Source: Candidatus Rokuibacteriota bacterium (GTDB lineage: Bacteria > Methylomirabilota > Methylomirabilia > Rokubacteriales > CSP1-6). From it: 64,000 bases of DNA. Every line of letters begins with the position of its first letter. The stretch's first letter is position 1. The notes under the pieces were generated by a model. The model made no database searches. It saw only the letters and a program-made list of their open reading frames with translations, and was not told the DNA's origin. This document shows positions 22,279-42,416 of the stretch, one piece after another. The stretch is taken from NCBI GenBank assembly GCA_016184125.1, contig JACPDG010000044.1, positions 1-64,000 on the forward strand, written 5' to 3'. A program made the translations under genes and the position numbers.

Positions 22279-22346
22279 GAGCGCCGGCTTTGCCGGCGCA
22301 ACGATCTGGGGGGAGGTTCGGAAGGGGGGCGAAGCCCCCCTCCGAG
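22279..22346 (+). repeat. Family 2 two-hairpin repeat, copy a
   Basis: GAGCGCCGGC-TTT-GCCGGCGC hairpin, then AACGATCTGGGGGGAGG, TTCGGA, and AGGGGGGC-GAA-GCCCCCCT followed by CCGAG. Same architecture at 34380, 39570 (inverted) and 41089. Confidence 0.85.
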
Positions 22347-39762: not shown

Positions 39763-40407
39763 ATGACACGACAGGTGCAGCCAGCTCAACCGGGACGGCC
39801 GCGTGAGGGGCGAGCGACGAGGGATGCGATCCTGGCCACCGCCCGACGCCTGATCCACGTCCACGGCTACCGCGGGACGAGTCTCGACGACGTGCTCAAG
39901 GAGAGCGGGGTCGGCAAGGGTAACTTTTACTACTACTTCAAGAGCAAGGAAGAGCTCGGTCACGAGATCCTCAACGAGCTGATCCAGGAGTTCCTGGAGG
40001 AGACGCTCGAGCCCTGCTTCGCCGATCCCGGCGCGAGCCCGCTCGGACAGATCCGCTGCTTCCTCGCCCGCGTGCTGGAGATCCAGCGGCGGACGAACTG
40101 CGTCGGCGGCTGTCCGCTCGGCAACCTGGCCGCGGAGCTCGCCGACCGGCACGAGGGGTTCCGGGCGCGCCTGCACGGAGTCTTCAGCGCCTGGCAGGAG
40201 CGACTCAGGGACGCCCTGTGCCGGGCGCAGGCGCGCGGGCATCTCGACGCCGCGTGCGACCCGGCGGCGATGGCCGCATTCGTGGTCGCGTCGCTCGAGG
40301 GCGCGATCCTGATGGCGAAGCTCGCGAAGGACATCGAGGTCATGGAGCGGTGCGTGGCGGAGCTCGGGCGGTACCTGTCCATGTACGAGATGCTGCCGGC
40401 GTCGTGA
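39763..40407 (+). CDS. TetR/AcrR-family transcriptional regulator
   Basis: 214 residues. The N-terminal HTH is typical (TRDAILATARRLIHVHGYRG, TSLDDVLKESGVGKGNFYYYF, KSKEELGHEIL). The C-terminal ligand domain contains CVGGCPLGNLAAELAD, found in the TetR_C_11/YcdC-like group. A palindromic operator abuts the start codon, so it is probably autoregulated. The ECF sigma gene overlaps its stop (GTGA), so both should be induced together. Ligand unknown. Confidence 0.92.
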   Translation: MTRQVQPAQPGRPREGRATRDAILATARRLIHVHGYRGTSLDDVLKESGVGKGNFYYYFKSKEELGHEILNELIQEFLEETLEPCFADPGASPLGQIRCFLARVLEIQRRTNCVGGCPLGNLAAELADRHEGFRARLHGVFSAWQERLRDALCRAQARGHLDAACDPAAMAAFVVASLEGAILMAKLAKDIEVMERCVAELGRYLSMYEMLPAS

Positions 40408-41012
40408 GCGTCCTCGTGTCCCGACTCGATCCGGACCAGGCGCTCGTGGACGCGCTCCGCCGCGACGATTCGTCCGCGCCCGATCTGCTCGTGGACACCT
40501 ACGGCGACCGCGTGTACCGCCTGGCGTTCCGCATCACCGGGTCGCGCGAGGACGCCGAGGAGGCCGCGCAGGACGCGCTGTGGACGGCGGCGCGAAAGAT
40601 CGACAGCTTCAAGGGCGATTCCGCGTTCGGCAGCTGGCTCTACCGGATCACCGCGAACGCCGCGTACCAGAAGCTGAGGCGGCGCCGGACGAAGGAGCGC
40701 GAGATCGCGCTCGAGGACGTGCTCCCGGCCATCGAGCGGGACGGCCGGCACTTCGAGCCGATGGACGACTGGTCGCGGCGGGTCGACGACCGTGCGTTCG
40801 ACAGCGAGCTCCGGCGCGTGCTCGAGCACGCGATCGAGACGCTACCGCACGACTACCGGACGGCGCTCGTCCTGCACGACGTCGAGGGCCTGTCCAACCC
40901 GGACATCGCCGAGACGCTCGGGATCAGCCTGCCCGCGGTGAAGTCCCGCGTGCACCGGTCGCGCCTCTACCTGCGCCAGCGGCTGTCGGCCTACATGGAG
41001 AGCACCCGCTAG
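40404..41012 (+). CDS. ECF RNA polymerase sigma factor (RpoE type)
   Basis: 202 residues. Region 2 has YRLAFRITGSREDAEEAAQD and SFKGDSAFGSWLYRITANAA; region 4 has LPHDYRTALVLHDVEGLSN and IAETLGISLPAVKSRVHRSR. No anti-sigma gene follows. Instead the gene is coupled to the upstream TetR gene, so TetR ligand release may control it. Confidence 0.92.
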   Translation: MSVLVSRLDPDQALVDALRRDDSSAPDLLVDTYGDRVYRLAFRITGSREDAEEAAQDALWTAARKIDSFKGDSAFGSWLYRITANAAYQKLRRRRTKEREIALEDVLPAIERDGRHFEPMDDWSRRVDDRAFDSELRRVLEHAIETLPHDYRTALVLHDVEGLSNPDIAETLGISLPAVKSRVHRSRLYLRQRLSAYMESTR

Positions 41013-41088: not shown

Positions 41089-41159
41089 GAGCGCCGGCTT
41101 TGCCGGCGCAACCGATCCTGGGGGGAGGCTTCGGAAGGGGGGCGAAGCCCCCCTCCGAG
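41089..41159 (+). repeat. Family 2 two-hairpin repeat, copy d
   Basis: GAGCGCCGGC-TTT-GCCGGCGC, AACCGATCCTGGGGGGAGG, CTTCGGAAGGGGGGC-GAA-GCCCCCCTCCGAG. Almost identical to the copy at 22279. It lies just upstream of the selenoprotein start. Confidence 0.85.
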
Positions 41160-41171
41160 TTGTCTAGGGCC

Positions 41172-42032
41172 ATGCCCGTCAAGTCCGACGCGAGCTGGAT
41201 CCCCGGGTTCCATGCGCGCTTCGAGCCGTGGTGGGTCGAGGCGCGTCCGCTCGTCGCGCAGCATCAGTACGCGGCGGCGTTCCGGACGTACCCGTGGCCG
41301 ACGTTCGCCGACGCCCCGTGGACGCCACTCGCGAAGCCGCTGGCGGAGTCGACGGTCGCGCTGGTCACCACCGGCGGCTTCTACCGCCGGGGCGTGGACG
41401 TGCCCTTCGACGCCGAGGGCCTCGAGGGCGATCCGAGCTTTCGCGCGATCCCGCACGCGACCGACCCCGCAACGCTCGCGATCGCGCACGCCCATTACCC
41501 GCACGATGTGGCGGAAGCCGACGTGAACACCGTCTTCCCGATCGAACGGCTCGACGACCTCGCCCGAGAGGGCGTGATCGGCGGCGCGGCGCGGACCCAC
41601 TACAGCCTCATGGGCTACGTCGTGCGGGCCGACGATCTCGCGATGGTCACGGCACCGACGATCGCTGCGCTCATGCTCGAGGAGCGCGTCGACGTCGCGC
41701 TCGTCGTTCCCGTCTGACCCGTATGCCACCAGTCCGGTGGGCTGGTCCAGCGGGAGGTCGAGGCGGCCGGTATCCCGACGATCTCCCTGACGAACAACCC
41801 CGCGGCGACGGCACGGATCCGACCCCCGCGGGCCGTGCAGGTCCGCTTCCCCCGGGGCAGCATGTTCGGCGAGCCGGGCAACCGCAGCAAGCACCTCGCC
41901 GTGCTCCGCGAGACGTTCGACGCTCTCGAGCGGATCGAGGCGCCGGGCAGCTCGGTCGTGCTCGGCCACCGGTGGGAGGCGCCCCCCGTCATGTGGCGAG
42001 GGAAGGGGCTCGTGGAGGGCTCGTACAGTTGA
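41172..42032 (+). CDS. GrdB/PrdB-family reductase-like selenoprotein (Sec at UGA 41715)
   Basis: A 286-residue protein if TGA 41715-41717 is read as selenocysteine (Sec182). The frame before it (...LALVVPV-type beta strand) and after it (PVCHQSGGLVQREVEAAGIPTISL) belong to one domain of the glycine/sarcosine/betaine/D-proline reductase selenoprotein B family. There a Sec in a U-x-x-C redox motif precedes a G..v.reiE.AGIP helix, as in GrdB. The downstream part ends properly at TGA 42030. A 5-bp hairpin starts 8 bases after the UGA. ATG 41172 begins MPVKSDASWIPGF. No other Grd/Prd gene is nearby, so the reductase substrate is unknown. Alternative: a nonsense mutation in a Cys homologue. Confidence 0.82.
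41725..41742 (+). promoter_or_regulatory. Candidate bacterial SECIS hairpin
   Basis: GCCACC-AGTCC-GGTGGGC: stem CCACC/GGTGG with a 5-base loop, beginning just after the in-frame UGA, where bacterial SECIS elements bind SelB. The short stem makes this tentative. Confidence 0.45.
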
Positions 42033-42107: not shown

Positions 42108-42416
42108 ATGGAAGCGGTCATCGCGAGCGGCGGTAAGCAGTACCGCGTCGTCCCCGGCCAAGTGATCTCGGTCGAGAAGGTCCCGGGCGACAAGGGCGCA
42201 CCCGTGGAGTTCCGGGACGTGCTTCTCGTGACCCGGGACGGCGACGTCCTCACGGGCGACCACGTGCGGTCCGCCCGCGTCGCGGGCGAGGTCGTGCGGC
42301 AGGCACGCACGAAGAAGGTCATGGTCGTGAAGTTCAAGCGGCGCAAGGGGTACCGGCGCCACCGCGGCCACCGGCAGGCGATGACGGCCGTGCGGATCAC
42401 GGCGATCGAGGTCTGA
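42108..42416 (+). CDS. rplU: 50S ribosomal protein L21
   Basis: 102 residues, the full L21 length. It begins [18 protein letters not shown] and has the basic [25 protein letters not shown]-binding stretch typical of L21. It leads the conserved rplU-rpmA-obg cluster. Confidence 0.97.

Follow-up and report, generated by a model that had tools for sequence, protein, structure and literature searches.

A predicted stand-alone PrdB-like selenoprotein encoded downstream of a TetR regulator and an ECF sigma factor in Rokubacteria

Rokubacteria are uncultured, and the source organism of the DNA described here is a soil bacterium. The window, by which we mean the whole stretch of 64,000 nucleotides that was analysed (GCA_016184125.1, contig JACPDG010000044.1, positions 1 to 64,000), belongs to a genome assembly of 4.09 Mb in 121 contigs that is 92.8% complete. 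By inspection, the genes upstream of the locus are nuo genes for complex I, which fits an organism that respires. The locus itself has the following features.

39763–40407, forward strand: TetR-family regulator, AcuR/NemR-like, with a C-[VI]-G-G-C pair that is invariant in 15 genomes
40404–41012, forward strand: ECF sigma factor (TIGR02937), overlapping the TetR gene by 4 bp
41133–41156, forward strand: dispersed palindromic repeat between the sigma factor gene and the selenoprotein gene
41172–42032, forward strand: predicted stand-alone PrdB-like selenoprotein gene, 286 aa, with Sec182-Pro-Val-Cys185 (open frame, TGA in relatives, profile match, AlphaFold)
41715–41717, forward strand: UGA codon, predicted selenocysteine, residue 182 (TGA in relatives and family genomes; Cys in Roseomonas and Haematobacter)
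41728–41746, forward strand: putative bSECIS hairpin, 8-bp stem 41728–41735/41739–41746, loop GGU 41736–41738 (folding, covariation)
42108–42416, forward strand: rplU, the conserved downstream neighbour that marks the site

One frame extends from the ATG at 41172 to the TGA at 42030–42032, and its sole internal stop is the TGA at 41715–41717, codon 182. The initial annotation expected ordinary gene calling to split this frame, and a plain gene caller did so, giving 41172–41717 and 41835–42032. Its view that the two halves are one protein held up in a set of 15 genomes, made up of the window and 14 orthologs from the same bacterial family (58–70% identity), in which codon 182 was TGA without exception and substitutions were of the coding type on both sides of it (0.26/0.26/0.43 at codon positions 1/2/3 upstream, 0.21/0.16/0.46 downstream). 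Amino-acid identity of the family orthologs to the window protein was 59% before the TGA and 72% after it. Relatives were found in 75 of 146 related genomes, and almost every full-length match carried exactly one internal TGA, indicating that close relatives read on rather than stop at this codon. The Sec column held TGA in all 61 relatives read, which came from about a dozen phyla, and the anticipated alternation with cysteine at position 182 was seen in Roseomonas and Haematobacter (CP[VI]CHQ) and in Paraclostridium (CGTCHR). Two very divergent relatives had no internal TGA, one with CVVC (G103) and the other with GGPLG (G145); a search for selB in the latter gave no match. Candidatus Rokubacteria GWA2_73_35 (L070) also belongs to the family of the window, which places the source organism among the Rokubacteria; the L070 protein is identical to that of another genome (G043:C264).

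The small hairpin predicted just past the UGA was found at 41728–41746, beginning 10 nt past the codon, with a folding energy of -20.1 kcal/mol and a distance of 18 nt as counted under the bSECIS model. That model allows a loop of 3–9 nt with G in the first two positions, a stem of 4–16 bp, a distance of 16–37 nt from the UGA and an MFE <= -7.5 (PMC13188914), and the window hairpin lies within every one of these limits. As a single sequence it is only mildly stable relative to shuffles (z -1.3 to -1.8), so the weight falls on covariation. Among 36 distinct sequences, 92.4% of cells were paired, compared to 81.6 ± 1.1% in shuffles and 12–50% in slid controls, and the stem had 34 doubly changed cells compared to 11.7 ± 2.5 in shuffles; no shuffle out of 500, and no slid control, reached the covariation score of the hairpin, the shuffle statistics being subject to kinship among the sequences and the slid controls preserving their relatedness. 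Codon usage agrees with the stem: Gly190 is encoded by GGA in 14 of the 15 family genomes, although 5.6% of the window's glycine codons are GGA; pairing of the third base of this codon with the Ser188 codon would produce such a bias.

The genome also encodes the full selenocysteine machinery, as the initial annotation proposed to check. The selB gene (C13:7800–9683) is adjoined by selA, a tRNA-Sec with anticodon TCA lies on the same contig (C13:12454–12551), and selD, itself with an internal TGA, is on contig C39. Comparative sequence evidence strongly supports the prediction that 41172–42032 is a genuine bacterial selenoprotein gene.

Assignment of this protein to a GrdB/PrdB-like family proved right in the broad sense, in that it has the homologous domain with Sec/Cys-x-x-Cys that defines the PrdB-like superfamily, but it is nearer to PrdB than to GrdB and falls outside true PrdB. 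The best NCBIfam model was TIGR04483 (PrdB), at 147.6 bits against a curated cut-off of 300, followed by GrdB-type models that were below their own cut-offs; the match to Pfam GRDB (PF07355) was restricted to positions 205–343 of 347, the C-terminal part. Other branches of the family score 139–181 on the PrdB model. In a phylogenetic tree the PrdB clade (six rows, 100/100) and the window clade (16 rows, 100/100) were apart; the deep nodes are weakly resolved and long branches lead to the GrdB row and to two divergent forms, so our claim is that the clades are separate, not that any are sisters. The PrdB rows were taken from plasmid records, where most of the prdB genes sit with PrdA. One Sec-containing gene inside the PrdB clade, on a Peptoclostridium acidaminophilum plasmid (L130 5962–6675), has no annotated PrdA within 6 kb. 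We rejected identity with the D-proline reductase subunit PrdB, given a score half of the cut-off, a position outside the PrdB clade and a genome in which PrdA was not found, and we rejected a full GrdB because the N-terminal GrdB domain is missing and no GrdE is adjacent.

The earlier statement that no Grd or Prd subunit lies near the gene was correct, and elsewhere the genome has two UGA-containing paralogs and one GrdE–GrdB pair. Only one PF09338 (GrdE/PrdA-type) gene was found; it is GrdE-like, lies on contig C83, and precedes a gene for a full-length GrdB selenoprotein, whose in-frame TGA gives the motif UGSG (L018 7233–9814; G000:C83). The pyruvoyl proprotein PrdA was not found in the genome (assembly 92.8% complete), and a search for GrdA gave no match there or in control genomes. 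With no pyruvoyl partner in the genome, the window protein is very unlikely to reduce D-proline, a conclusion we regard as well supported. Of the proposal that it is a stand-alone Sec reductase, the first part is supported; reductase activity is a prediction from homology and the UxxC motif. The two PrdB-like paralogs are both on the reverse strand. The first, on contig C79 (G000:C79:7122–7817), is beside an arsenosugar-type glycosyltransferase gene, and the second, on contig C120 (G000:C120:46900–47613), lies after a pair of HpaB-type hydroxylase genes, one of which was checked for its HpaB domains.

AlphaFold produced a confident model of the window protein (mean pLDDT 95.4, from a 62-sequence alignment), yet a Foldseek search of the PDB returned no match at E < 0.001 (best TM about 0.3), and searching the PDB by sequence yielded either nothing or spurious short matches to designed or unrelated proteins; the structure offered no lead to a mechanism. 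PrdB has most of the near-invariant residues as well (H106, D117, N119, P123, U182, C185, R194, E197 and R220), so an active-site pocket resembling that of PrdB is likely.

Gene order was the same in all 15 family genomes: TetR, ECF sigma factor and selenoprotein gene, often with 4-bp overlaps or short gaps between them, then rplU, rpmA and obg where the contig continues, with nuo or Rnf genes further upstream. Prd and Grd genes were absent from the neighbours that recur around the window clade in these genomes. For the TetR regulator, AcuR was the best NCBIfam model, below its cut-off, and NemR was the PDB match at 2e-14. NemR is a cysteine-based sensor of reactive electrophiles and chlorine species (PMC5297802), and the likeness to it, together with the conserved cysteine pair, at first suggested an electrophile-response operon. 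Both this reading and a regulation unit dedicated to the selenoprotein, which the 15 family genomes taken alone had seemed to show, were weakened, given that 53 of the 57 family genomes have the TetR protein and the ECF gene persists next to rplU where the selenoprotein gene is missing. In 20 of 20 relatives examined that have no selenoprotein gene, the ECF gene lies directly before rplU, 66–398 bp apart, so co-regulation may be positional. The ECF–rplU gap of one genome (G040; L151, G040:C105) contains a 33-codon remnant with 58% identity, indicating recent gene loss at a conserved site. The selenoprotein gene is an accessory passenger of the TetR–ECF operon, not the operon's reason for being, and has probably passed down vertically in the family, with repeated losses.

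We considered whether absence of the gene is tied to loss of selB, and rejected this: most genomes without the selenoprotein gene retain selB, so its loss is not due to loss of the Sec trait. Five family genomes gave no selB match, and among these only one (G033, 77% complete) has a PrdB-like UGA gene. The aligned intergenic stretches between the ECF and selenoprotein genes have no common motif that would mark a conserved promoter. The GC-rich palindromic repeat in this interval, GGAAGGGGGGCGAAGCCCCCCTCC, occurs at 22320–22343 and 41133–41156 of the window and has 16 copies in the genome with <=1 mismatch, compared to none in the control. A possible short frame with a recurring LFPLG[LF] follows directly after the sigma factor gene in five relatives (L103, L105, L106, L095 and L100) and was not seen in the window.

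The wider family occurs in very different gene contexts. A branch with the motif UGLC, like the C79 paralog, clusters with genes for ArsS, an rSAM–ArsM fusion, a TIGR04283 arsenosugar glycosyltransferase and a MerA-like reductase. At one such selenoprotein gene, the adjoining gene (L117 10148–12040) fuses an N-terminal radical SAM domain to a C-terminal arsenite methyltransferase-like domain. A luciferase-like monooxygenase gene directly precedes three members, two from Alphaproteobacteria and one from Candidatus Binatus. Three proteobacterial members (L083, L087 and L090) have U-P-L-D, in which Sec is kept and the second Cys is replaced by Asp; these proteins may have no resolving Cys or may use another. 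Two of the three UPLD members follow a luciferase-like monooxygenase gene. Relatives of the C120 paralog follow a B12–CoA-transferase fusion, a CoA-transferase/mutase context, and in Bacillaceae the neighbours of the gene encode a CDP-alcohol phosphatidyltransferase-type protein and an ABC transporter. One of these Bacillaceae is a named strain, Neobacillus novalis NBRC 102450, whose UGA-containing member (L068 9992–10693) has genes of both these types next to it, which makes the function accessible to ordinary genetics. The differences in context make a single function for the whole family unlikely, and the family probably has several substrates.

The reading we consider probable is that residue 182 of the window protein is selenocysteine, read by SelB with the help of the hairpin, and that this stand-alone relative of PrdB is a selenol reductase acting on a small electrophile. 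SelB carrying Sec-tRNA would read the UGA as selenocysteine, aided by the downstream hairpin, and the Sec182 selenolate would attack a small electrophilic or oxidised substrate held in the pocket common to PrdB (H106, D117, N119, E197 and R220). Cys185 could then resolve the adduct as a selenenylsulfide, with cellular dithiols such as thioredoxin regenerating the enzyme, and the gene may be induced through the TetR–ECF pair. GrdB-type proteins attack with Sec as the nucleophile, and one system of this type has been implicated in fluoroacetate C–F cleavage, where a Schiff base is impossible (PMC10838667). The position of the gene in the TetR–ECF operon hints, weakly, at an optional stress or detoxification function and not at a core pathway.

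It is also conceivable, but unlikely, that the protein is an ordinary catabolic enzyme that cleaves C–N or C–X bonds of an organic substrate reductively, like GrdB or FarB, and that its place after TetR–ECF is accidental. GrdB homologues cleave C–N bonds, the GrdB-type system mentioned above is implicated in C–F cleavage of fluoroacetate (PMC10838667), TetR–ECF persists where the selenoprotein gene was lost, and other branches are near luciferase-like monooxygenase, HpaB-type hydroxylase and acyl-CoA genes. In the 15 genomes of the window clade, however, the genes that recur beside the selenoprotein gene include no transporter and no catabolic enzyme, and without a pyruvoyl partner the known route of amine activation is impossible.

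Handling of metals or metalloids, with the selenol binding or reducing arsenic, mercury or copper species, seems to us improbable for the window protein. Selenols bind soft metals, which is established chemistry; the UGLC branch and the C79 paralog have arsenic- and mercury-related neighbours, and several members have a P-type ATPase gene nearby. The immediate neighbours in the window clade are instead TetR, ECF sigma and rplU, and the tree keeps the branches apart. A shade less probable still is that the protein binds substrate as the B subunit of a glycine- or proline-reductase-type complex whose partner is encoded elsewhere, either the C83 GrdE-like protein or an unassembled PrdA. Such a complex would suit the homology to PrdB, the presence of a GrdE–GrdB pair in the genome and an incomplete assembly from which PrdA could be missing, but the C83 GrdE already has its own adjacent GrdB, and the recurring neighbours are TetR, ECF sigma, rplU, rpmA, obg and upstream nuo/Rnf. 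That the UGA is a real stop, so that the frame is a pair of genes, a gene in decay or a product of misassembly, is scarcely credible despite TGA being the commonest stop in the window (47 of 65 called genes) and the frame being split by a plain gene caller, in view of the TGA in 61 of 61 relatives, the coding constraint on both sides, the covariation of the bSECIS and the complete Sec machinery.

Proline reductase is an anaerobic Stickland enzyme, and the samples of ocean surveys are mostly surface water. PrdB-type selenoproteins are nevertheless among the most abundant in those surveys, where they were filed as proline reductase (PMC1088965, PMC2398784). Counts of genes filed as proline reductase or PrdB include 42 with Sec (PMC1088965), 235 with Sec and 110 with Cys (PMC2398784), and 131 with Sec (PMC5029168). 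One publication mentions a MAG of Methylomirabilota for which 63 selenoproteins are predicted (PMC13188914). Taken broadly, the window protein adds no new selenoprotein family: it belongs to a wide and mostly Sec-bearing one, and "PrdB" selenoproteins with UxxC have been counted since 2005. Our search of the open literature found no paper on selenoproteins or selenocysteine in Rokubacteria that covers the window clade; as far as that literature shows, what is new is a clade separate from true PrdB, its lack of a partner, its operon and its history of loss. By the tree, the model scores and the partner evidence, true PrdB makes up a small clade, and the majority of the relatives sampled are something else. 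We see about an even chance that the "PrdB" of the surveys are mostly stand-alone selenoenzymes, spread over roughly a dozen phyla, that act on several substrates other than D-proline, with the Rokubacteria branch being a pyruvoyl-free selenol reductase. The recurring "PrdB" annotation is probably mistaken, and the use of selenium by respiring bacteria is under-explained.

Among known systems, PrdB (TIGR04483; prdB of Enterococcus raffinosus and Terrisporobacter mayombei) shares with the window protein homology over residues 46–266, Sec in UxxC, and conserved H106, D117, P123, E197, R220 and others. The window motif is UPVCHQ whereas that of PrdB is UGTCHR, and the window protein has an N-terminal extension, falls in a separate clade and comes from a genome in which PrdA was not found. 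With GrdB, the selenoprotein B of glycine/sarcosine/betaine reductase (PF07355, TIGR01918), it has in common the C-terminal domain and the Sec-xx-Cys position, but not the N-terminal GrdB domain or a neighbouring GrdE. FarB of the fluoroacetate-degrading system is a GrdB homologue in which Sec is likewise proposed as a nucleophile acting without a Schiff base (PMC10838667); it is a full GrdB-type protein with a FarE partner, a transporter and an rSAM gene, none of which is beside the window gene. The ocean-survey "PrdB" genes (Sargasso Sea 2005, GOS 2008; PMC1088965, PMC2398784), which we set alongside by their broad annotation and UxxC motif, are called proline reductase in those papers, and we found no description of the Rokubacteria clade or its operon. 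The PGAP name "glycine/sarcosine/betaine reductase selenoprotein B family protein" is the one borne by the alphaproteobacterial Cys forms.
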